Part shown: positions 7,154 through 36,652 of the stretch, one piece after another
How positions within the stretch are numbered: position 1 is the first letter of the stretch
Layout of the letters: each line of letters opens with the position of its first letter
DNA from: an uncultured Candidatus Saccharibacteria bacterium
GTDB taxonomy: Bacteria; Patescibacteriota; Saccharimonadia; Saccharimonadales; Saccharimonadaceae
DNA length: 37,076 nt
Assembly: GCA_949480205.1 (NCBI GenBank)
Contig: CASXXK010000009.1
Location: 1 to 37,076, forward strand
Reading direction: 5' to 3'
Notes under the pieces: generated by a model
Database searches by the model: none
What the model saw: the letters and a program-made list of their open reading frames with translations, nothing else
Told to the model about the DNA's origin: nothing
Translations under genes and position numbers: made by a program

Positions 7154-7164
7154 AGTTGGGGTTC

Positions 7165-7386
7165 GTGCGCAGCGGTGATCTTCGGCCGAGTGATGGTAAA
7201 TCTTGGTATGCTGGTCAGGGCGGCTATTGGTGGTCATCTCGCGGAGGGGATAATGTTTGGGGTTCGGCTGGTCTAGGTAGTTATCGCTTTGATTTTGGTG
7301 TAACTGGAGTAACTCCATCAAACGGCCCTACGTACCGTTATTATGGTTTCTTCCTCCGCTGCCTTAGTACCGTATTAGACATGTAG
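7165..7386 (+). repeat. Lectin-like cassette C3
   Basis: Starts GFVRSGDLRPSDGKSWYAGQ 11 nt after the RhuM-Fic stop, then YWWSSRGGDN, SYRFDFGVTG, PSNGPTYRYYGFFLRC and LSTVLDM, TAG. The tail has two base changes relative to the consensus (TTCC for CCCC, ACCGTATT for ACTGTATT), making it the most diverged tail here. Confidence 0.8.
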
Positions 7387-8115: not shown

Positions 8116-8334
8116 TTACATATCTAATACAGTACTAAGGCAGCGGAGGGGGAAAGCAAGCCAACAGCTATTTGGACCATCAGATGATCGAACATCACTA
8201 GTATTAAATCCAAGATAATAGGCTGAGGCAGAGGTTGCTGATGTATAGACGGCTGCTTGTGATGACCACCACTGGCCAATAGCACCAAGAGTCCAAGATT
8301 TACCAACACTCAAAGAAATGAGACCGCTGCGCAC
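8116..8334 (-). repeat. Lectin-like cassette C4
   Basis: Minus-strand translation: DYFVRSGLISLSVGKSWTLG, then QWWSSQAAVY, SASAYYLGFNTS, SSDGPNSCWLAFPLRC and LSTVLDM, TAA. Its tail starts 5 nt after the tlyA stop. Head-to-head with C5, 16 nt apart. Confidence 0.85.
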
Positions 8335-8350
8335 GAAGTAATCTGGCCTC

Positions 8351-8611
8351 GTGCGCAGCGGGTATCTTGTACCAACTGCTGGCAAGTCATGGAGTACTGG
8401 AGAAATTAGTTATACTTGGTCATCACGTGGAGCGAACGTACGATCGGATGGTATTGTTACGCCAAGTGCCTATAGTTTAAACTTTGCTACTAGGGTAAAT
8501 CCGTCCGATGGACCAAATAGTCGTTATCTTGGTATCCCCCTCCGCTGCCTTAGTACTGTATTAGACATGATGAGATGGTGTAAAAATAAAAATCCCGCTT
8601 GCGCAGAATAA
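8351..8611 (+). repeat. Lectin-like cassette C5
   Basis: GLVRSGYLVPTAGKSWSTGE, then YTWSSRGANV, SAYSLNFATRV, PSDGPNSRYLGIPLRC and LSTVLDM. The usual stop after LDM is missing, so the frame runs on for 14 codons to TAA; the conserved DNA ends at 8569. The region between the heads of C4 and C5 is a palindrome with arms CCGCTGCGCACGA and TCGTGCGCAGCGG. Confidence 0.85.
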
Positions 8612-8633: not shown

Positions 8634-9680
8634 ATGAGCTTAATTCATGGAGTGGGCGATTTCTTCGCACTAGATATTGGGACAACTGCCATTCGTTTGG
8701 TGCAGCTGTCGGGTGATGCTGGGCATGGCTGGTCATTGCAAAAGTTTGCGTACGTACCAGTGGAACGTAAAGTCTTGGAAGACGGTTCGGCATCTGGTGT
8801 ACGGCGTTTGGGGGAGACGATTCTTGGTGCCATGCAACAAGCTGGGATTACGACTAAAAATATTGCAGTAGGTATGCCGGCGGTCAAGACTTTTACGACG
8901 ATCGTAAAAGTAGAGAATCAATCCGAGGCTGAGCTGATGAACACCGTCAAATATCAGCTGGATAAATATATTCCGATGCCACTTGATGAGGCGACAGTGG
9001 ATTATGTGAGTTTGGGGGTATGCCCGAATGATGCCAGTAAAGTGGAAGTTTTGGTTTCTTCTACGGCGGTGGATTTCGCTGAAGCACGAATGGAATTGAT
9101 TGAATCTTTTGGTTTAAACGTGATTGCGCAGGAGCCAGAGAGTTTGGCGATGGCGCGAGCTTTGATGCCGCCAGGAGCGCAAGATGCTCGTTTGATTATT
9201 GACTTGGGTGAGCGCAGTACAGATATCGTAATGATGTATCGTGGGGTGCCAAGATTGGTGCGTTCAATTCCGGGTGGTTTTGCATTGTTGATTCGGACGG
9301 TAGTGTCGGCTTTGACGGTACGTGAGGAACAGGCGCGGCAGTTTATTCTGAAGTTTGGTTTGGCGCAGGACAAAGTGGAAGGTCAAGTATTCAAGGCGCT
9401 GGATTCGACGTTGGAGAGCTTTGCTAGTGAGTTGTCGAAATCGATTCGTTTCTTCCAGTCAGAATATATGAATGCACCGGTAGGGGGAATTATCTTGTCT
9501 GGTTTTGCGGGGATGATTCCATTTATCGCTGAATATATTGAGGCGAAGACCAATGTTCCAACTACTCAGGGAAATCCATGGCAATTGGTTAAGGTTTCAC
9601 CAGAGCAACAGCAAGTATTGCGACCCGTGGCTAGTGAGTTTGCTGTGGCAATTGGTTTGGCAGAAAGGAGCAACGACTAA
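8634..9680 (+). CDS. pilM: Type IV pilus assembly protein PilM
   Basis: 348 aa, normal for PilM, the actin-fold cytoplasmic protein of the pilus alignment subcomplex, which binds the N-terminus of PilN. Seen: the phosphate-1 loop FFALDIGTTAIRLVQLSG near the start, GMPAVKTFTTIVKV, the second nucleotide-binding strand LIIDLGERSTDIVMMYRG, and PVGGIILSGFAGMIPFIAEYI for the adenosine motif. It opens the pilus operon and shares one base with the next gene (TAATG). Confidence 0.92.
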   Translation: MSLIHGVGDFFALDIGTTAIRLVQLSGDAGHGWSLQKFAYVPVERKVLEDGSASGVRRLGETILGAMQQAGITTKNIAVGMPAVKTFTTIVKVENQSEAELMNTVKYQLDKYIPMPLDEATVDYVSLGVCPNDASKVEVLVSSTAVDFAEARMELIESFGLNVIAQEPESLAMARALMPPGAQDARLIIDLGERSTDIVMMYRGVPRLVRSIPGGFALLIRTVVSALTVREEQARQFILKFGLAQDKVEGQVFKALDSTLESFASELSKSIRFFQSEYMNAPVGGIILSGFAGMIPFIAEYIEAKTNVPTTQGNPWQLVKVSPEQQQVLRPVASEFAVAIGLAERSND

Positions 9681-11062
9681 TGAAAGAGTGGTTTGAAAAC
9701 CTAATCGCAAAGATTATCGGTAAGAATGCTGAGCCGAAGGAAAATTTGATTACTACGGTGGCAACGACTTATGAGATTAACTTGGTGCCAGAAGTTAAAG
9801 CTCAAATGATTCGGGCGCAGAAGTTACGTAATCTTGTTTTGTTCATTTGTATCATGGTGGCGGTGGTTTCTATTGGCGTAGTGTTGGTGTTGTTTGGCAT
9901 CAAGTCTGGTCAAGATATCGCGATTCACAATCAAGATAAGCGTCTCGAAACGATGTCGGGGAAATTGCTTGGTTACGAAGAGCTTAGTGATTTGATTACG
10001 ATTCAAAATCAACTTTCGCGTTTGGATGCGATTGCTGATGAAAAAACAGTTTTGTCGCGCGTATTTGGTGCGCTCGGCGTGATGTTATCGCAAGGGGATG
10101 ATTTTGTGAAGTTGTCTGAGTTGCGCGTAGATCTAGATAATTATACTCTGCGTATGGAAGGCCAGACCGATGCGCGAGTGGCGCCGTTGATTGACTACCG
10201 TGTGTTGGAGGCGTTCAAGAAGAGTGTTGCTTTGACCAAATATGACTATGGTCGCTATGTGGATGTGAATGGTAATGAAATTCCTACATGGTGTATGAAT
10301 GAGTCAGATGCCGACGGTAATGCCTATCGCGTGGGTGATAGCTACTATGCTTGGTGGGATTTGACCACCGAAGGCTGTGCAGCATTAGCTTTGGGTGAGA
10401 TGGTGCCAGAGAATTCAAACATCCAACTTTTCTACAATAGCGAGTCGGAAGTTGAAGTAGCGGAGCAGGAGATGAGCTACGAAGATTTGGAGGCTGCTGG
10501 GATTAAGGTAGAGGTGGATGAAGAAGGTAATACGACGCTTTCGGATGAAACGGTTGAGATTCGTGACGTGGAAGGTGAAACTAAATATTACCGTATGACT
10601 GTGGCACGAGTGAAGGTTTGGCGGACGCCACAATTCACTGAGTGGCATAATGGTGGCTTGATGGAACTTGATGGTGTGGTCTCGGGAATTGAACATTTTG
10701 AGAGTGCCTGTACGCATTATAGTGGTCAAATGGTGAGCAGTTCGCCGGTTGCGAAATGGACGTCAACCAATGAGTGTATGATTGCTCCAGATGGTTTGAC
10801 GGTGACGGATTCATCTAATGGCCGTGATGAGAGCGAGAATTTGGTTTTGAAGTTTACCGCAACGATGAAAGTGGATCCAGCATTCTTTGCCTTCCAGAAT
10901 AAGCACATGATTGCGATTGGCCCAATGGGGCAGAACGTGACGGACTCTTTTGTCCAGATTGGCAATATCTTTACTCAAGAAGCGCATGAATGTGGTGAAA
11001 ATGATACTGAATGTTTGACGAATTCAACTAACACGGGAGGGAGTGCACAAAATGGCAGATAA
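9680..11062 (+). CDS. pilN: PilN-like pilus assembly protein, enlarged
   Basis: 460 aa. Order and N-terminus identify it: TYEINLVPEVKAQ (residues 30-43) matches the INLLP motif by which PilN binds PilM, followed by one membrane helix (about 51-76, LVLFICIMVAVVSIGVVLVLFG) and a coiled coil. PilN proteins are usually about 200 aa; here the periplasmic-side part is more than twice as long, with Cys-containing segments (CMNESDADGNAYRVGDSYY and a later pair of Cys) and an acidic insertion around residues 255-300. In a single-membrane cell this part would lie outside the membrane. It is translationally coupled with pilM and overlaps the following gene by 11 nt. The extra region is unassigned. Confidence 0.75.
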   Translation: MKEWFENLIAKIIGKNAEPKENLITTVATTYEINLVPEVKAQMIRAQKLRNLVLFICIMVAVVSIGVVLVLFGIKSGQDIAIHNQDKRLETMSGKLLGYEELSDLITIQNQLSRLDAIADEKTVLSRVFGALGVMLSQGDDFVKLSELRVDLDNYTLRMEGQTDARVAPLIDYRVLEAFKKSVALTKYDYGRYVDVNGNEIPTWCMNESDADGNAYRVGDSYYAWWDLTTEGCAALALGEMVPENSNIQLFYNSESEVEVAEQEMSYEDLEAAGIKVEVDEEGNTTLSDETVEIRDVEGETKYYRMTVARVKVWRTPQFTEWHNGGLMELDGVVSGIEHFESACTHYSGQMVSSSPVAKWTSTNECMIAPDGLTVTDSSNGRDESENLVLKFTATMKVDPAFFAFQNKHMIAIGPMGQNVTDSFVQIGNIFTQEAHECGENDTECLTNSTNTGGSAQNGR

Positions 11063-11963
11063 CACTAAGAGACCAGCGGAAGCAAAGCGTGAGAAAATTT
11101 CCAAGGCACAGCAGTATACTATGCTGGAGGTTTTGGGTGCTTCTATCGTGCTGGGTGCTTGTATCGTGATTGCAATTTTCATGATTAAATACATCAAGTT
11201 TAATGCGATGGTGATTGGTGAGAAAAATGAAGCTATTACAGCGTATGACCAGTCTATCCGTAACGTTGGTGTTTGTGTAGACACAGATAATAATGGGCGT
11301 TTGAGTGCGGAAGAGTTGGAGAAGTGTAATCCGAATGAGGTTTCTCTGGAAAAAGTGACAAATAGTTTGCGTTATAAGATTTTGACACAGATGGCGCAAA
11401 ATACAGATTTGGAGTCAGTGGCACGGCAGCGTAACGAGAATTGTTTTGATGAGACGGGCACACGGATTGATTTTAACAAGTTATACGAAGAGTCAACTGA
11501 CGAGAAGGAAAAGCAACAATATTTGCAATCTTCTAAGATTTGTTCCGCTTTGCGTGTGATTCCAGATGCTTTGCCGGCTTTGAAGAATACTGAAGCTTTG
11601 ATGGCAAGTCTGAACCAAATCTTTGTACTGGCGGGTTGGGAACCAGAGCGGATTTCTCCGCGGGATGATAGCACAAAGTCCGACATCAGTGGCGTGGATG
11701 TGATTCCAGTGACACTGCGAATTGAGGGTGCAGACGATGTAGTATTGGGTGTATTAAATAAGATTGAGCAATCGATTCGGGAGTTTGATATTACTAACGC
11801 CACAGTAGAGTGGACTTCTGCCGGGTTGAGCTTGCAAGCTTCGGCGAACGCCTATTATTTGAGCGAACAAGAACCAATTGAAACGATGGTAAAATTGTAT
11901 GCCTCAAACAAAGCACGTGTGAACGAACGTAGAAATAGCAATGCAAACAAGGAGAGCGAGTAA
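11052..11963 (+). CDS. pilO: PilO-like pilus assembly protein with an EF-hand loop
   Basis: About 303 aa. One N-terminal membrane helix (LEVLGASIVLGACIVIAIFM, about residues 20-45) is followed by an extracytoplasmic domain; position after pilN and topology suggest PilO. A canonical calcium-binding loop, DTDNNGRLSAEE (about residues 77-88), is bracketed by cysteines (CV before, LEKC after). The C-terminal half (VIPVTLRIEGADDVVLGVLNKIEQSIREF) resembles the ferredoxin-like fold of PilO/PilN. The ATG at 11052 has GGGAGG 10 nt upstream; a GTG at 11043 is also in frame. It shares one base with the next gene. Confidence 0.7.
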   Translation: MADNTKRPAEAKREKISKAQQYTMLEVLGASIVLGACIVIAIFMIKYIKFNAMVIGEKNEAITAYDQSIRNVGVCVDTDNNGRLSAEELEKCNPNEVSLEKVTNSLRYKILTQMAQNTDLESVARQRNENCFDETGTRIDFNKLYEESTDEKEKQQYLQSSKICSALRVIPDALPALKNTEALMASLNQIFVLAGWEPERISPRDDSTKSDISGVDVIPVTLRIEGADDVVLGVLNKIEQSIREFDITNATVEWTSAGLSLQASANAYYLSEQEPIETMVKLYASNKARVNERRNSNANKESE

Positions 11964-12298
11964 TGAAGCAATCAGATATTTTCACCTTGATTCTAATTGC
12001 GGGGATTGGGACTTTGGCGGCGTTTTTCTTGTGCAATGCGATTATGGGCGATCCAGATTTGGCAACGACGGAATATAAGACTCTAAGTAAAGTGATAGAA
12101 AACCGATTAGCAACGCCAGATCCAGAGATTTTTAATGGTTATGCTGTAAATCCAACGGTGGAAGTTTATGTGGGAAGCTGTGTGGATATGGATCAGAACG
12201 GGATTTTGGATATGGCCGAGTTGATTGCTTGTGGTCGTGAAGAAGCGCCAACTGAAGAAGAAACTGAGGAAACACCAGAAGACACAACAGGAGAATAG
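11963..12298 (+). CDS. Small membrane protein with Cys-bracketed EF-hand loop
   Basis: 111 aa. One N-terminal membrane helix (FTLILIAGIGTLAAFFLCNAIM, residues 7-28), a short extracytoplasmic region, then an exact EF-hand-type loop DMDQNGILDMAE (about residues 75-86), preceded by CV and followed by LIAC. This is the same Cys spacing as in the PilO-like gene just upstream. The C-terminus is a Glu/Thr-rich tail (EEAPTEEETEETPEDTTGE). Its position between pilO and pilB corresponds to pilP in other operons, but it does not resemble PilP. It probably belongs to the pilus inner-membrane platform and may sense or be stabilised by calcium, which is an inference. Confidence 0.75.
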   Translation: MKQSDIFTLILIAGIGTLAAFFLCNAIMGDPDLATTEYKTLSKVIENRLATPDPEIFNGYAVNPTVEVYVGSCVDMDQNGILDMAELIACGREEAPTEEETEETPEDTTGE

Positions 12299-12299
12299 G

Positions 12300-14066
12300 G
12301 TGGCATTATTAACTAAGGATGGGCTTGACAGAGTAATTCAACTTCTCGTAAATGAGGGGTTGGTTGATGCTGGTGAAGTTGCAAGCGTACAGCAAGAAGT
12401 CGCCCAGACCAAGCAGCCACTGTTGGCAACGCTTTCGAACAAGAAGTTGGTGACCAATGAAATGATTGCACATGCGACGGCGACAGTTATGGGCGTGCCG
12501 TATGTGAACTTGCGTGATGTGGAGATGGGGCAGAATGTTCTGAAGCTTTTGCCGTATGATGTGGCGGAGCGGAGCATGGTGGTGCCACTTGGCGAGAGCA
12601 ATGGCCAAATGGTGGTAGCAATGCTAGACGTGGGGAATGTGCAAGCGGTAGATTATCTATCGACCTTGACTGGGCGCCCAGTGCGAGCTGTGATGTCTTC
12701 GAGCGACGGAATTCAATCGGTTTTGAATCAGTATAAGGGCGACTTTACTGGTGTGGCGCAGGCGGTGAAGGTTACTAATCAGGAAGTGGCGCAAAAGGCT
12801 GCAAGTGCGAATGTCAAAACGATTACGCAAGATTCACCAATCTCCAAGGCTTTGACTTCGATTTTGGAATTTGCCGTCAAAAGTAAGGCTTCGGATGTGC
12901 ACATTGAGCCTTTGGAAAATGCCTTGGTAATTCGTTGTCGGATTGATGGTGTGCTGCGCAAGGTGATGGAACTACCCAAAGCAATTGAGCCGGCGTTGGT
13001 GTCGCGAATTAAAATTCTGTCGAATTTGAAGATTGACGAACACCGTATCCCGCAGGATGGCCAGTTTGCTGTGATGGTGAGTGACAAAGAAGTGGATTTG
13101 CGTATTGCGATTTCTCCGGTGGTGTGGGGTGAGCAAGTGGTGATTCGCTTGCTGGATAAGTCAGGTACAAGTATGGAAATTGAAGCGATGGGTATGACGG
13201 GCCGAGCGCTGCGAACGGTTTTGGCGGGAATTAGTCGACCAAATGGTATGATTTTGACTTCTGGCCCAACTGGTTCAGGTAAAAGTACGACTCTGTATGC
13301 TTTGATCAAGAAAATCAAAAGTGAGCGGATTAATATTGTGACTCTGGAAGACCCGGTAGAGTACAAGATGGATGGAGTGAATCAGATTCAGGTAAACGTA
13401 GATGCTGGCTTGACGTTTGCTTCGGGATTGCGCAGTATTTTGCGTCAGGATCCAGATGTGGTGATGGTGGGAGAGATTCGTGATAGTGAGACGGCAAACT
13501 TGGCAGTGCAGGCATCTTTGACGGGGCATTTGGTGTTTTCTACTTTGCACACGAACTCGGCGGCAGGGATTTTGCCGCGGTTGCTGGATATGGGAATTGA
13601 GCCGTTCTTGTTGGCGTCGACTTTGAATACAGTGATTGGTCAGCGGTTGGTGCGGCGAGTTTCAGAAAAACGCACTGTAGTGCAAAGTACAGAAATGCAG
13701 ACTGAAGAAATTAACAATGTAGTGGGTGGCTTGTTACCAAAATCACAGGAGGATGTACCTGAAGTGAGCGAAGATTTGGGCTATGCGGGTTTGCCGTTAG
13801 CCAATCAGAACTCTTATACTTTAGTCAAAGGGGTGGACGATCAAGATTCGCCGGGTGGGTATTCGGGTCGAGCTGGTTTGTATGAAGCGATTGACGTTGA
13901 TGAAGATATTCAGAAATTGATTATTTCGCATGCGACGTCGGCTGAAGTGATGCGGATAGCGAAAGAAAAAGGCACGGTCACAATGCGTCAGGATGGGATG
14001 CTAAAAGCACTATCGGGGATAACGACAATGGAAGAGGTTAATCGGGTGGCGAGCGACCTCGCATAA
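12300..14066 (+). CDS. pilB: Type IV pilus extension ATPase PilB
   Basis: 588 aa from GTG 12300, chosen because AGGAG lies 6 nt upstream and the protein then begins VALLTKDGLDRVIQLLVNEG, the usual N-terminal domain; longer frames would overlap the previous gene. The T2SS_E_N domain spans about 40-150, the ATPase core 190-560. Walker A is GPTGSGKSTTLYALI (about 325), Asp box GEIRDSETANLAVQAS, Walker B region RQDPDVVMVG, His box HLVFSTLHTN. The tetracysteine zinc motif usual after RLVRR in PilB/GspE is absent: the segment reads RRVSEKRTVVQSTEMQ and continues with an acidic insertion. It powers pilus polymerisation at the cytoplasmic face. Confidence 0.93.
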   Translation: MALLTKDGLDRVIQLLVNEGLVDAGEVASVQQEVAQTKQPLLATLSNKKLVTNEMIAHATATVMGVPYVNLRDVEMGQNVLKLLPYDVAERSMVVPLGESNGQMVVAMLDVGNVQAVDYLSTLTGRPVRAVMSSSDGIQSVLNQYKGDFTGVAQAVKVTNQEVAQKAASANVKTITQDSPISKALTSILEFAVKSKASDVHIEPLENALVIRCRIDGVLRKVMELPKAIEPALVSRIKILSNLKIDEHRIPQDGQFAVMVSDKEVDLRIAISPVVWGEQVVIRLLDKSGTSMEIEAMGMTGRALRTVLAGISRPNGMILTSGPTGSGKSTTLYALIKKIKSERINIVTLEDPVEYKMDGVNQIQVNVDAGLTFASGLRSILRQDPDVVMVGEIRDSETANLAVQASLTGHLVFSTLHTNSAAGILPRLLDMGIEPFLLASTLNTVIGQRLVRRVSEKRTVVQSTEMQTEEINNVVGGLLPKSQEDVPEVSEDLGYAGLPLANQNSYTLVKGVDDQDSPGGYSGRAGLYEAIDVDEDIQKLIISHATSAEVMRIAKEKGTVTMRQDGMLKALSGITTMEEVNRVASDLA

Positions 14067-14101: not shown

Positions 14102-15685
14102 ATGGATAATGGTATGCAAGATACAAATATGACAACACCAACTTCACCGTTTGCGCCAGCGGATATTCCGGATATCAACAGCGTGCCAACATCTGGGGCG
14201 ATGCCTCCGATGAATGTGAGTATGTCTAGTGCTGGAACTACACCTGCACCTGTGCCAAATCCAGCCATTCCGGCAGCTGATTCTGTGCAAGCGATGCCTA
14301 CTGCTCCGACTCAGGCGCCAGTGGCAATGGATGTGAGCATGGCCGATATTCCAGAGCCGAAATTAGCGGTAGAGGAAGCGCCCAAAGATTTGACAGCTAA
14401 GCCGCCAGTGATTGAAAGTCAGATCCCGAAGGTGGGAGGCGCAAAACCACCGGTGGTGTCGAAACCTGTTGTTGAGGCGAAGAAGCCGGAGGCAAAATCG
14501 GTAGCGGGAACTGAAGCGAAGTCCAGTGAAAAGAAGCCTGCGCCGAAGGCGGCTACGAATCCAGCGGTGACCGATGTGGAGGTTGCGGCTACGAGTTTGC
14601 CAGCAAATAATTCTGTAGTGCCGAATGGAGTGACGATTGAGATTTTGTTGGATGAATGTTTGCGCCATAGTGCTTCGGACTTACATTTGCAAGCAGGATT
14701 GCCACCAGTTTTGCGTATAGACGGAGTTTTGCGACCGTTATCGACTTATCCGGCTTTGGATGATATGGCGATTCAGCAGTTGGTATTCTCGACTTTGGAT
14801 TCTAACCAAAAGATGATTTTGAAAAAAGATAAAGAATTTGACTATTCTTTTGCTTTTGGGGATTTAGCACGTTTTCGTGTTAACGCATTCTATGAAAAAG
14901 GGAATTTGGCGGCGGCTTTTCGTTTGATTCCAAATGTCATTCGTAGCATTGAGGACTTGGGCTTGCCTGGTGTAGTAGGGACTTTTGCCGACCATCCGAA
15001 TGGTTTGGTGTTGGTGACCGGTCCAACTGGTTCGGGTAAAACTACGACTCTGGCGGCTTTGGTAGACAAAATCAATTCCGAGAAGGCTGTACATATTATT
15101 ACGATTGAAGATCCGATTGAATTTACGCATCAGTCAAAACGTGCGGTAGTGGCGCAGCGTGAAGTACACTATGATACTTACAGTTTTGCGGCGGCGCTCC
15201 GGAGCATTCTGCGTGAAGACCCAGATGTGGTATTGATTGGTGAGATGCGTGACCTAGAGACGATTCAAGCGGCGATTACGGTGGCGGAGACGGGACACTT
15301 GGTGTTTGCGACTTTGCATACTAATAGCGCAGCGCAGAGTATTGATCGTATGATTGACGTGTTCCCGGCACATCAGCAACCGCAAGTGCGAGCACAGTTG
15401 GCGAACATCTTGGTGGGGATTTGTAGTCAAAGGTTGGTGCCAGCAATTGAGGGTGGACGCGTAGCAGTAACGGAGATTCTAGTAACGAATTCAGCAGTGC
15501 GTAGCATTATTCGTGAAGGTAAGACTCATCAGCTGGATATGACGATTCAGACTGGCATGAGTCAGGGAATGCAGACAATGGATCGGGAGTTAGCTAAGTT
15601 TGTGAAGAGCGGTGTGATTGCTTATGATGTAGCACGTGAGTATGCAGTAGACATGGCGGAGTTTGACCGGTTAGCAAGAGGTTAG
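14102..15685 (+). CDS. pilT: Type IV pilus retraction ATPase PilT with long N-terminal extension
   Basis: 527 aa, against about 350 for usual PilT. Residues 1-175 are low-complexity Pro/Ala/Lys/Ser/Thr (for example SKPVVEAKKPEAKSVAGTEA) and probably disordered. From about 178 (VTIEILLDECLRHSASDLHL) the normal PilT fold follows: GPTGSGKTTTLAALV (Walker A), EDPIEF, REDPDVVLIGEMRDLETI (Walker B/Asp box) and HLVFATLHTNSAAQSIDRMI (His box). PilT drives pilus depolymerisation for twitching and DNA uptake. The C-terminus lacks the usual AIRNPN-like end and finishes AEFDRLARG. The pilC start follows one base after the stop. The tail may tether the ATPase to other components, which is a guess. Confidence 0.9.
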   Translation: MDNGMQDTNMTTPTSPFAPADIPDINSVPTSGAMPPMNVSMSSAGTTPAPVPNPAIPAADSVQAMPTAPTQAPVAMDVSMADIPEPKLAVEEAPKDLTAKPPVIESQIPKVGGAKPPVVSKPVVEAKKPEAKSVAGTEAKSSEKKPAPKAATNPAVTDVEVAATSLPANNSVVPNGVTIEILLDECLRHSASDLHLQAGLPPVLRIDGVLRPLSTYPALDDMAIQQLVFSTLDSNQKMILKKDKEFDYSFAFGDLARFRVNAFYEKGNLAAAFRLIPNVIRSIEDLGLPGVVGTFADHPNGLVLVTGPTGSGKTTTLAALVDKINSEKAVHIITIEDPIEFTHQSKRAVVAQREVHYDTYSFAAALRSILREDPDVVLIGEMRDLETIQAAITVAETGHLVFATLHTNSAAQSIDRMIDVFPAHQQPQVRAQLANILVGICSQRLVPAIEGGRVAVTEILVTNSAVRSIIREGKTHQLDMTIQTGMSQGMQTMDRELAKFVKSGVIAYDVAREYAVDMAEFDRLARG

Positions 15686-32209: not shown

Positions 32210-32360
32210 CGAGGTATAAGAAAAGATACTCCTCTGTTTTTTTGGTAGTTAAACAAAAGACAGGGCAACATCCTCTCGTTTGAGGGGTCAATTATTTATT
32301 CGCTGATGTTTGAGAGAAAAGCGAATAGACGAAAATTAATAATTTAGGAGGTGTATGCAT
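32210..32360 (+). promoter_or_regulatory. Long structured 5' leader
   Basis: About 150 nt untranslated before a strong AGGAGG ribosome binding site. Hairpins visible: CCTC-TCGTTT-GAGG at about 32272-32286 and TATTCGCT ... AGCGAATA at about 32297-32328. Long leaders are unusual in this window. Not recognised as a known riboswitch. Confidence 0.4.
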
Positions 32361-35222
32361 ATGAAACAACGTATGCGGGCTAGTTTAGCCATGTTTTTGG
32401 CGCTGGTCATGATGCTGACATTGATCCCCTCGACGGGAGTGATGGCAGCGGAACCAAACGGTAGCGGCATAGAAGTTGCTAACACAGAAGTAAGCAGCAC
32501 CAATGCGAAGGTACCTTCGCTGAGAAGTCTTTTCTCAGCGACATACTATTCGGAGCATAACCCGGATGTGAAGGCAGCATATGGCGATAATGAAAACTTG
32601 CTATACCGTCATTATCTTTATTATGGTCTGAAGGAAGGGCGCGACATCAGTCCGATTTTGGATGTGCGAGCCTATCGAGCCGGAAACCCGGATTTGGATG
32701 CTGCTTTTGGCGACGATTGGAAGGCTTACGTGGTGCATTTTTTGCAGTACGGAATCTTTGAAAATGCGGCTGGACAGCGGTCGTCCAAAGGGATTAAGTT
32801 TAATCCGGTAAAATTCCTGAATGAACATCCGGAAGCGTGGCGGACTACTGGTGGTGATTTGATTAAGGTAGTGGAATACTACATTGATCAGGGCATGCCG
32901 GTAGGAAGTTGGGTAAACACTCCGGAAGATGAACAGCGTACAGTGCAGTCTGACAATAGTTCGTCTACAAGCAATAGCTCAACGTCGGGCACTACGCCGG
33001 ATAATGGTGGAGGATCCACTAAACCGACAGTGCCGACTGAACCGGGCGTATCGGATAACGATCCGGTGAAACCCGTTGACCCTGTTGAGCCAATTGAGCC
33101 GGTAGAACCCGTGGACCCGGTAGTACCGGAGCATGAGCATACTCGGGGTTCGTTTGATGCAGATGGAAACTGCAAGGTTGAAGGTTGTGATTATACTTTG
33201 GCAGATTTGCAGAAAGCCTGCAAATTGCCGCATAGTGCAATTGCAATTGGACAGACTTGTCCGGGATGTGGAGCTCCGGGAACGAAAGAACCGGAAGAAG
33301 AGCACACAAGAGATTCTGTGCATGATAAGAATACGTTCGATGAGAACGGAGACTGCATGCTGGGGTGTGATCTGACGCTGGCAGAGTTTCAGGAGAGTTG
33401 TCCGGATAAGGACAATCATAGTAATATTCCGTCCACAGAAAAATGTGAAGTTTGTGGAGCTTCAGGAACGAAGGTGGAAACTCCGGTAGATCCGCCGAAA
33501 CATGAGCACAGTTGGGCTGCAGTTTGGACTAATGACGCTGATGCGCATTGGCATGAGTGTGAAGCGGCTGACTGTGATGTGGTGGCGAATGCCGACAAGG
33601 ATGGCTATGCTGTGCATACGTTTGGCGAATGGGATGTGACTAAAGAGCCTACAACGGAAGACGTTGGCTCTAAAATTAGAACTTGCACGGTATGTAGCTA
33701 CGAAGAAACGGAAGAAATTCCGAAATTGGAAGTAACTGATCCTGAACCTCCGCAGCACACAGCTGATTCGGAGCACACCAAAGAATCGTTTGATGATAAC
33801 GGTAGTTGCAAGGAAGGTTGCAATCTGACTTTGGAAGCGTTCCAGAATGCTTGCCAGAGCGAAGAGCATGAGACCTTGAAGGCTACGGGCGGAGAATGCT
33901 CGGTTTGCGGCAAGGTGATAGAGCAGGAGGAAAAACCTTTTGTTTGTCCGAAAGCAGATAGCCATGATGCACTGCACGATGGTGTAGCTTGCGACGGTGA
34001 AGGCTGCGATTACGTGGGCGAAGCTGAGCATAATTTTGAGGACGGGGCGTGTATTGGTTGCGATGCGACTTGTACGCCGGAAACTTGTCCGGAAAAAGAA
34101 AATCACGCCAACATTTTGACTACGGCAAAGTGTGATGTGTGCGGTGGCGCAGGAACCAAGGTGGAAGAACCGATACCGCCGGCGCATACTAAAGAGTCTG
34201 ACCATGTTTTGGCGGATTTTGAGGATGGAGTTTGTAAAGAGAATTGTGGCTTAACGCTGGCGGAGTTTCAGCAGAATTGCACGGAGCACAATGACCTACA
34301 TCAGGGCCAAATTTGCACAAACTGTGGAACCGAGGGGACAGTGGAGCATAAGTTTGAGAATGGGAGTTGTGCTTGTGGCGCGACTTGTACCGAAGAAACT
34401 TGTCCAAACAAAGATAACCACGCTGCAGTAGCTTGTAGTGAGGGTTGTGGGATTTGTCCTTATATTGCACCGGCGCACAGCTACAATTCTGGTAATCCTG
34501 AATGCATAAGATGTGGCAAGGAATGCACGCATAACTTTGGCGATGATGGAAATGGCAGTGAATGCGCATGGTGCCATATGCACAATAACGCTTACTGCAA
34601 TAGTGATTTTCATGATCATTGTAATGCGGATCCCAATGCTCATTGCCCGAATGATTGGTGCGAGCGGCCGGCAGCGGATCATAGTTGGAATGTGGAAACT
34701 GGTAGTTGCCGCGATTGTGGTGCTGCTTGCCCGAATACAGATAATCACGTTGAAGGAGAGGCTTGTGGAACTTGTGGTCACACGAAGCCACAATCGGAGC
34801 CGTCATGCACGGACGAGAGTCATGCGCAGTTAGCTTGTGGTGCTCAGTGCGATAAATGTGATTTTGTAGGTGAGCACAATTATGGAGATGACGGCGAATG
34901 TACAAAATGTCATCTGGTGAAGCCAACAGAAGGGGAATCTGGCGGACAGGATGACAGTGACGATCCTACGAATAATGGCAACAGTGGCACGGGCGGTGGT
35001 AGTAATACTGATAATGCAGACGGGATTCCGGCAACTCAGAGTCTGCCGGATGCTTTGCCGGTAGAACCGGTGAGTGGTGTTCCCGATACTATCCCGGATC
35101 CCGATTCTGAGCCCAAAGGGAATCATGATGAGTTTGATGACGATCCGGAGGAGGAAGATGAAGAACCGGAATTGGAAAATGCCGATTCAGCTGCGGATGA
35201 AGCTGACAATGTCGGCGAATAA
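32361..35222 (+). CDS. Secreted Cys-rich repeat protein, 953 aa
   Basis: ATG 32361 lies 9 nt after AGGAGG (ATG 32355 is too close). The signal peptide (RMRASLAMFLALVMMLTLIP, then a cleavable GVMAAEP) is followed by an alpha-helical domain (about 50-185) with the pattern SATYYSEHNPDVKAAYGD ... YRHYLYYGLKEGRDISP, seen in many clostridial secreted proteins. A PVEPVEP-type Pro/Glu spacer precedes about 600 residues of Cys/His-rich repeats of the form H-x-FD-x-G-x-C ... C-x-LTLAxFQ-x-x-C ... C-x-x-CG, plus one HSWAAVW ... HWHECE ... RTCTVCSYEETEEIP module. The repeats look like zinc- or disulfide-stabilised units. The C-terminus is acidic (DDDPEEEDEEPELE) with no LPXTG or membrane anchor. Probably a surface or host-contact protein. 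Confidence 0.85.
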   Translation: MKQRMRASLAMFLALVMMLTLIPSTGVMAAEPNGSGIEVANTEVSSTNAKVPSLRSLFSATYYSEHNPDVKAAYGDNENLLYRHYLYYGLKEGRDISPILDVRAYRAGNPDLDAAFGDDWKAYVVHFLQYGIFENAAGQRSSKGIKFNPVKFLNEHPEAWRTTGGDLIKVVEYYIDQGMPVGSWVNTPEDEQRTVQSDNSSSTSNSSTSGTTPDNGGGSTKPTVPTEPGVSDNDPVKPVDPVEPIEPVEPVDPVVPEHEHTRGSFDADGNCKVEGCDYTLADLQKACKLPHSAIAIGQTCPGCGAPGTKEPEEEHTRDSVHDKNTFDENGDCMLGCDLTLAEFQESCPDKDNHSNIPSTEKCEVCGASGTKVETPVDPPKHEHSWAAVWTNDADAHWHECEAADCDVVANADKDGYAVHTFGEWDVTKEPTTEDVGSKIRTCTVCSYEETEEIPKLEVTDPEPPQHTADSEHTKESFDDNGSCKEGCNLTLEAFQNACQSEEHETLKATGGECSVCGKVIEQEEKPFVCPKADSHDALHDGVACDGEGCDYVGEAEHNFEDGACIGCDATCTPETCPEKENHANILTTAKCDVCGGAGTKVEEPIPPAHTKESDHVLADFEDGVCKENCGLTLAEFQQNCTEHNDLHQGQICTNCGTEGTVEHKFENGSCACGATCTEETCPNKDNHAAVACSEGCGICPYIAPAHSYNSGNPECIRCGKECTHNFGDDGNGSECAWCHMHNNAYCNSDFHDHCNADPNAHCPNDWCERPAADHSWNVETGSCRDCGAACPNTDNHVEGEACGTCGHTKPQSEPSCTDESHAQLACGAQCDKCDFVGEHNYGDDGECTKCHLVKPTEGESGGQDDSDDPTNNGNSGTGGGSNTDNADGIPATQSLPDALPVEPVSGVPDTIPDPDSEPKGNHDEFDDDPEEEDEEPELENADSAADEADNVGE

Positions 35223-35389: not shown

Positions 35390-36652
35390 ATGAAAACTAA
35401 ATATGGGAAGCCCTGGTGGGCGAATTGTTTAGCGGTGACTTTGGTTTTGGCACTGATGTTGGTTTTGATGCCGACGGTTACTGCGCAGGCAGCACCGGCC
35501 GATACGGCGGTGACGGAAAGTACAGAAGGTACAGATGTGGAAGATACGGCGGTTAAGACTGCGACCAAGCTTGACAAGGAAACGGTTTTGGCATTGAAAA
35601 GTATCTTCTCGCTTGACTATTATGCCAAGTGTAACCCGGATGTGTTGCAGGTCTTCGGCTATAACGAGGCAGCAATATTCCAACACTTTTTGGACTACGG
35701 CTTAGAGGAGGGGCGTGTAGTTAGTCCGATTGTAAATTTGCAGGCGTATCGTGATGCCAGCCCGGACTTGGTGGAAGTCTACGGCGATGACTGGAAGGGT
35801 TTGGCTGGGCATTTCGTAACATACGGAATTTATGAAACCGCCAATGGCGACCGTCCGTCGAACGGAGTTTTGTTTAATCCGGTAACGTATTTGCAGGAGC
35901 ATCCGGAAGCGGAGCTGGCGACCGGGGGCGATGTGCTGAAGGCGGCAGAACTGTTCATTGACGAAGGCATGCCGGCTGGAGAATGGGCAGATGAGACTAT
36001 AGTGGCCGTAATGCAGGCAGAGAGCTACGAAGAAGTACAGAATATCCTGACTGAAGCTGAAGTCTCCAGAGATGTTGAAGGTAATTGGAAGCCCGAAGCA
36101 ACTGAAAGTAACGGGAACAATTCTTCAACTATGACTACGCCTTCAGAGCCGACTATTACGCCGCCGCAATTAATTGATCCGCCCGTATTGCCGGAAACAC
36201 CTGATACGCCGGATGGGCCTGACGAACCGGAAGTTCCGGAAGTTCCCGAACCGCCCGTGATACCGGATCCGCCGGAGCCGGTTTGTGGGGAAGACCACGC
36301 AGCGTTGCGTTGTGGTGAGGCTTGCGGTTCTTGCGACTATGTCGCTCCGGATCATGAATATGAGAGCGGCTATTGTGTCAAATGTGGTATATCGAGGGTG
36401 CAGGCGACCTGTCAGCATAATTTCGTGAATGGCACGTGCGTGAAGGGTGGAAATACGCAGGGTTGCGGTTTCCATGATCCCAACTATGTCAATCATGAGC
36501 ATGAATACGGTGATGACGGATATTGTAAGCTGTGCAAGGAGCGAAACCCGGAATTGCCGCCCGAAGAAGTTGAAGGCGAACCGGAGGTAGTACCTCCGAC
36601 ACCGCAGGAGCCGATTCCTACGGTGTCGGGAGGAGATGCTATTGCTGCGTGA
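35390..36652 (+). CDS. Secreted Cys-rich protein, paralogue, 420 aa
   Basis: Signal peptide (ANCLAVTLVLALMLVLMPTV, then TAQAAPAD) and the same N-terminal domain as the upstream gene: SIFSLDYYAKCNPDVLQVFG, HFLDYGLEEGRVVSPI, GIYETANGDRPSNGVLFNPV, then FIDEGMPAGEW. A Pro-rich spacer (PPVLPETPDTPDGPDEPE) leads to a shorter Cys/His part (CGEDHAALRCGEACGSCDYV, CVKCG, CKLCKERN), giving a roughly half-size version. The end is PTVSGGDAIAA without an anchor. AGGAGG lies 13 nt before the ATG, longer than usual. The pair probably arose by tandem duplication, each copy with its own promoter and terminator. Confidence 0.85.
   Translation: MKTKYGKPWWANCLAVTLVLALMLVLMPTVTAQAAPADTAVTESTEGTDVEDTAVKTATKLDKETVLALKSIFSLDYYAKCNPDVLQVFGYNEAAIFQHFLDYGLEEGRVVSPIVNLQAYRDASPDLVEVYGDDWKGLAGHFVTYGIYETANGDRPSNGVLFNPVTYLQEHPEAELATGGDVLKAAELFIDEGMPAGEWADETIVAVMQAESYEEVQNILTEAEVSRDVEGNWKPEATESNGNNSSTMTTPSEPTITPPQLIDPPVLPETPDTPDGPDEPEVPEVPEPPVIPDPPEPVCGEDHAALRCGEACGSCDYVAPDHEYESGYCVKCGISRVQATCQHNFVNGTCVKGGNTQGCGFHDPNYVNHEHEYGDDGYCKLCKERNPELPPEEVEGEPEVVPPTPQEPIPTVSGGDAIAA

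Follow-up and report, generated by a model that had tools for sequence, protein, structure and literature searches.

The locus analyzed here, from a very small parasitic bacterium, raises the question of whether two adjacent genes of a type IV pilus platform encode EF-hand-type calcium loops held between cysteines, how such loops are distributed among related genomes, and what they could do at the base of the pilus. A sequence-only reading of the same DNA had proposed a disulfide-stapled calcium module shared by three platform proteins, and the results below bear out part of this proposal and remove another.

Composition of the pilus locus

The window, that is, the whole stretch of 37,076 bases analyzed, contains a type IV pilus locus with overlapping or abutting genes in an operon-like arrangement. 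The plus strand encodes pilM (8634 to 9680) for a PilM-like platform protein with an ATPase fold (Pfam PilM_2, 138.5 bits against a cut-off of 27 bits), a pilN-like gene between PilM and PilO (9680 to 11062), pilO (11052 to 11963) for a PilO-like platform protein with one transmembrane helix and a genus-specific insert, a gene for a small bitopic membrane protein filling the gap between pilO and pilB (11963 to 12298), and the assembly ATPase gene pilB (12300 to 14066; T2SSE domain, 403 bits), whose start was inferred at the GTG codon at 12300 compared to a mechanical open reading frame start at 12225. A second ATPase of the same locus (14102 to 15685, plus strand; T2SSE domain, 166.6 bits) is probably PilT judging by gene order, and pilC, pilin, and prepilin peptidase genes were identified by eye downstream of it. 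An additional T2SSE ATPase was encoded on another contig of the same genome, and a PilB scan of viral contigs returned no relative. Locus one of Nanosynbacter lyticus TM7x is reported to comprise pilM1, pilN1, pilO1, pilB1, pilT, pilC1, and pilD; deletion of its targeted pilins did not succeed, and it probably powers twitching (PMC12206443). Gene content suggests that the window locus corresponds to this TM7x locus one.

Several further features were observed around the locus. Three short open reading frames situated directly upstream (7156 to 7386, 8116 to 8385 on the minus strand, and 8351 to 8611) have near-identical tails (LRCLSTVLDM) and repeats 42 to 81 bases long in both direct and inverted orientation, resembling repeated C-terminal gene fragments. 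Two large secreted-looking proteins (32355 to 35222 and 35390 to 36652) share similar N-terminal regions (YY...NPDV...) and contain many repeated Cys-rich CxxC segments. In genome G001 of the same genus, listed as 100 percent complete, neither PilO nor the core of the small protein was detected, and this locus may have been lost there or may have diverged strongly.

The assignment of 11052 to 11963 as a PilO platform protein is supported by a PilO-type periplasmic domain together with gene order. A profile of 46 PilO relatives matched the PilO chain of PDB entry 3jc8 (E 3.4e-7, positions 171-265), Pfam PilO matched 11 of these 46 relatives, and the gene neighbors pilM, pilN, and pilB, the flanking members recognized through Pfam PilM_2 and T2SSE. 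The identity of PilN is mainly positional, with a Pfam PilN match (E 0.0048) for a single one of the 15 short relatives drawn from other genera. Its DADGN turn (amino acids 210-214; 10307 to 10321, plus strand), put forward earlier as a third calcium site, has neither Gly6 nor Glu12, and its equivalents in PilN relatives form a variable Asp-Gly turn beside a conserved Cys, including in genomes without EF loops. No canonical EF loop was found in any PilN of 150 loci of the genus, and the turn was dropped as an EF-hand loop and from the calcium module.

The small protein has a single membrane helix, and its core terminates in NPTVEVxIG. This core is kept across the order and, within the class, was present in 158 of 195 genomes, compared to an EF tail restricted to the genus; in most other genera read, the protein stops right after the core. 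A 24-row alignment of the core identified no relative in Pfam or the PDB. An identity as PilP was rejected at the sequence level, the same alignment giving no PilP match in PDB sequences or Pfam. The outgroup genus (L013, L014, L015, and L019) carries in the same place another Cys-bracketed tail, C-x12-C, without EF ligands, and a stapled tail of the small protein may predate the calcium loop.

Two cysteine-bracketed loops in neighboring genes

The PilO loop (residues 75-92; 11274 to 11327, plus strand) reads CVDTDNNGRLSAEELEKC and the loop of the small protein (residues 73-90; 12179 to 12232, plus strand) reads CVDMDQNGILDMAELIAC. Both have the canonical 12 residues with D1, D3, N5, G6, L8, S or D at position 9, and E12, and both place one Cys two residues ahead of D1 and the other four past E12. 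The EF ligand pattern (positions 1, 3, 5, 9, and 12, with Gly6 and a hydrophobic position 8) was present in both window loops as well as in the 56 small-protein and 24 intact PilO loops placed on the tree described below.

A degenerate DNA pattern for the full 18-residue motif matched the window exactly twice and none of 100 dinucleotide shuffles, confirming that two neighboring pilus proteins have canonical Cys-bracketed loops with equal Cys spacing. Applied to 174 genus genomes, the pattern gave 67 forward matches in 46 genomes, a count that can miss loops with different Cys spacing or Tyr at position 8, and the reversed-pattern control gave 0 matches in the same genomes. All 67 were placed in the same two neighboring genes, including 20 in pilO and 47 in the small gene (46 in fetched loci and one on a separate contig from a split locus). 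A chance match was ruled out by the 100 shuffles and by the genus-wide counts with their reversed control. The motif occurred in 46 of 394 genomes of a family sample covering 61 genera, all of this genus, and in one of 379 genomes of a phylum sample, which was the window's own. A relaxed EF pattern without cysteines is uninformative (nine matches in the window's genome vs. five in the control). The Cys-bracketed loop is a discrete module under selection and was probably already present in the ancestor of the genus.

Distribution and history of the loops

PilO matches were found in 157 of the 174 genus genomes, from which 150 loci were read and seven were not fetched. The tree included 147 of the 150 loci, three being left out for want of PilB in the stretch, and L062, apparently the same genome as L034, was left out of the counts. 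The first tree was built on PilB plus PilN with 147 genus and four outgroup rows, and the second on a 75-row subset under a mixture model. Rooting rests on the four outgroup rows, one of them long-branched, and the order of the earliest branches is insecure.

One crown clade (support 100) divides the treed genomes: the small-protein loop was identified in all 56 that fall outside this clade and in 0 of its 91 members. PilO loops (24 intact and five near-intact, giving 29 of 147) were confined to the 56 non-crown genomes; these counts follow the tree labels, as the crown-clade rows L096 and L104 fit the loose EF expression without having the ligands. The small-protein trait undergoes two changes on the 75-row tree, one of which marks the transition to the outgroup, compared to seven to eight changes of the PilO trait. 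On the simplest reading, both modules would date back to the origin of the genus, with PilO ligands lost repeatedly and the small-protein loop lost by the crown clade. Conservation across Saccharibacteria, which the sequence-only reading had offered as a test, was not supported, as the motif was found in 0 of 220 sampled genomes from other genera of the family; within the genus, the loop residues were strictly conserved in the 56 early-branching genomes and replaced in the crown clade. Because 91 of the 147 treed genomes have neither loop, this pilus can do without calcium binding in the genus as a whole.

Conservation of the 56 small-protein loops was specific to position. Both Cys were invariant and position 12 was Glu in all 56, position 3 was D in 46 and N in 10, position 5 was N in 37 and D in 19, position 8 was L in 46 and I in 10, and position 9 was D in 30, S in 22, and N in four, with the non-liganding positions 2, 4, 7, 10, and 11 variable; the search expression itself demanded the first Cys, D1, and G6, yet it was matched by every treed non-crown genome. 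More than one loop was found only in L043 and L089 among the 56 small proteins, with three tandem copies in L043, each with its own cysteines, and two in L089. The L043 small pilus protein with its three tandem Cys-bracketed EF loops is encoded at 995-1456 on the minus strand.

The L089 small protein scored above the Pfam EF-hand_1 and EF-hand_5 cut-offs, the window PilO was below the Pfam EF-hand cut-off (16.9 bits vs. 25.9), and the window small protein had no Pfam EF-hand match. EF-hand_5 matched seven of the 56 small proteins at E 0.01. Most single proteins scored below the Pfam EF-hand cut-offs, and in our reading such short loops seldom attain whole-domain cut-offs. Against the PDB, the small-protein profile had calmodulins as its top but weak matches, located at the loop (E 0.012). 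The two AlphaFold models, each built from only two sequences, had a mean pLDDT of 49 and 38, too low to serve as evidence on burial or metal geometry.

The PilO bracket constitutes an insertion of about 33 residues that follows the first coiled-coil-like segment and has no counterpart in the closest outgroup genus or in the other aligned genera. PilO loops are looser than the small-protein loops; of the 32 that matched loosely, 30 have a basic residue at position 7. Most PilO proteins of the genus without an EF loop have a loop one residue shorter and without ligands (GxC-KxPxGxxYSxxELxxC), and this 21-residue form, which keeps the Cys pair together with the exit helix (SxxELxxC), accounts for 108 of the 111 non-EF brackets. 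Intermediates such as CESKDKSGRLSDKELSEC, CIPKNNSGKFSDADLKSC, and CKKTKSGTYSDKDLEDC were found in one small clade. Ligands were probably lost in several PilO lineages with the Cys pair retained. A second PilO Cys pair, C131 and C164 (11442 to 11543, plus strand; from the alignment), brackets no calcium loop and is common to the nearest outgroup genus; four Cys after the transmembrane region were present in 143 of 150 PilO proteins of the genus.

The persistence of the Cys pair and exit helix around the ligand-less KPxGxxYS loop in those 108 brackets indicates that the staple is clearly of value without calcium, and would suit loops that are disulfide-stapled loop-helix hairpins only, their acidic residues being incidental and no metal being bound in the cell. 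Such hairpins are a distinctly unlikely explanation for the loops, as positions 3, 5, 9, and 12 are confined to classic EF sets in 56 genomes with varying neighbors, Gly6 and the hydrophobic position 8 are kept too, and one relative (L089) exceeds the EF-hand profile cut-off. Recent gene conversion or copying between the two loops was rejected from similarities of 8.76 of 18 positions within and 8.28 of 18 between genomes (25 genomes), leaving room for an old common origin of the two loops.

A candidate calcium module at the pilus base

Both loops are on the predicted extracytoplasmic side, with the topology judged by eye from the sequence and the known PilO family. Three DsbA-like CxxC proteins with membrane anchors (judged by eye) are encoded in the genome and could form the disulfides, and a search of the genome for VKOR gave no match. 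The reading preferred here, with a probability of about 0.72, is that of a portable, disulfide-clamped micro-module with one structural Ca2+, present in two adjacent platform proteins of a retraction-type type IV pilus. The earlier proposal of a disulfide-stapled calcium module in the pilus platform is supported for the two Cys-bracketed calcium-type loops, with their predicted extracytoplasmic location and position-specific conservation, and fails for PilN.

The module would consist of the 12-residue EF-hand loop and its exit helix, clamped by a Cys–Cys disulfide (Cys at -2 and +4), and would lie outside the membrane, after the first coiled-coil-like segment in PilO and in the C-terminal tail in the small protein. 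It most likely holds one structural Ca2+, which would be largely occupied at millimolar outside calcium, and the ion and disulfide may jointly fold a segment too short to fold alone. Once folded, the module could stiffen the platform outside the membrane, giving contacts around the base of the pilus a rigid surface, and pilus function may be calcium-dependent in the species that carry it. It was probably present in both proteins of the genus ancestor, PilO having lost its ligands several times with the staple and helix kept and the crown clade having lost the small-protein loop as well.

The location of the modules on the platform beside the ATPases, and the existence of a calcium-regulated pilus protein in PilY1 (PMC3123361), could by analogy point to calcium sensors that gate the pilus, with occupancy altering the contacts of PilO or of the small protein and switching extension or retraction. 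This seems unlikely, as both loops were lost in the crown clade and gating of this type would not be general. The sequence evidence fits a sensing ion and a structural ion alike.

Canonical EF-hands work in pairs. Such pairing is usual in the superfamily, though not demanded of single-handed loops; the window proteins have one loop each, and no partner loop was evident within PilO or within the small protein. As EF loops usually pair and each protein normally has one, the PilO and small-protein loops might dock as an intermolecular EF-hand pair joining the two proteins, consistent with 29 of 29 treed PilO loops occurring in genomes with the small-protein loop and 0 in genomes without it. This docking is nevertheless very unlikely, since 27 treed genomes have the small-protein loop but no PilO loop, the nesting reflects shared ancestry with a small-protein trait that changes only twice on the tree, and the two loops are barely more alike within a genome (8.8 of 18) than between genomes (8.3). 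It is likewise rather improbable that the two loops form a calcium-bridged, disulfide-stapled joint in which outside calcium would set the firmness of the pilus-base assembly, and from which the crown clade escaped stepwise by losing PilO ligands first and then the partner loop.

The micro-module with one structural Ca2+ in each protein, if true, would put calcium control or stabilization at the motor base in bacteria with a lifestyle of attachment to other bacteria, where calcium may stabilize or tune the pilus base. The genus provides a natural experiment, since the loop of one and the same gene is present in 56 treed species and absent from 91, with intermediates in PilO, which allows the site's cost and use to be compared across species. 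With its predicted disulfide clamp, the module also represents a minimal EF unit that spans 18 residues and can be duplicated.

Comparison with known calcium sites

The likeness to the canonical EF-hand of the calmodulin superfamily lies in the 12-residue ligand pattern and the exit helix, whereas the loops described here usually occur singly in each protein, with a Cys clamp, a very short context, and no evident pair. The Excalibur domain and other "single-handed" extracellular DxDxDG loops of bacteria are small one-site calcium loops, with bracketing cysteines in the Excalibur domain. The candidate module resembles them as a small, predicted extracellular one-site loop but has the full EF pattern with Glu12 and an exit helix, and no Excalibur match to Pfam was found in the window proteins or the relatives scanned. 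The general class of single-handed extracellular DxDxDG loops is discussed in PMC3123361.

Compared to the PilN-PilO-PilP alignment complex, the locus shares the PilO domain and the gene order pilM-N-O-(small)-pilB-pilT-like, and differs in the genus-specific insert of PilO with its candidate calcium loop and in a small protein without a PilP match. Known effects of calcium on type IV filaments involve the tip or the filament subunits, the latter including the PulG-type pseudopilin of the type II secretion system with its calcium site. The tip protein PilY1 carries a calcium site (PMC3123361). The likeness to PilY1 and PulG is a calcium site inside a type IV filament system, in contrast to which the candidate sites described here are in inner platform proteins rather than at the tip or in filament subunits. 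A literature search on pili of Saccharibacteria and Patescibacteria combined with calcium, EF-hand, and PilO/PilN retrieved no such site in titles or abstracts. Calcium sites in type IV filament systems are already known, and the predicted platform site appears new within the literature searched.
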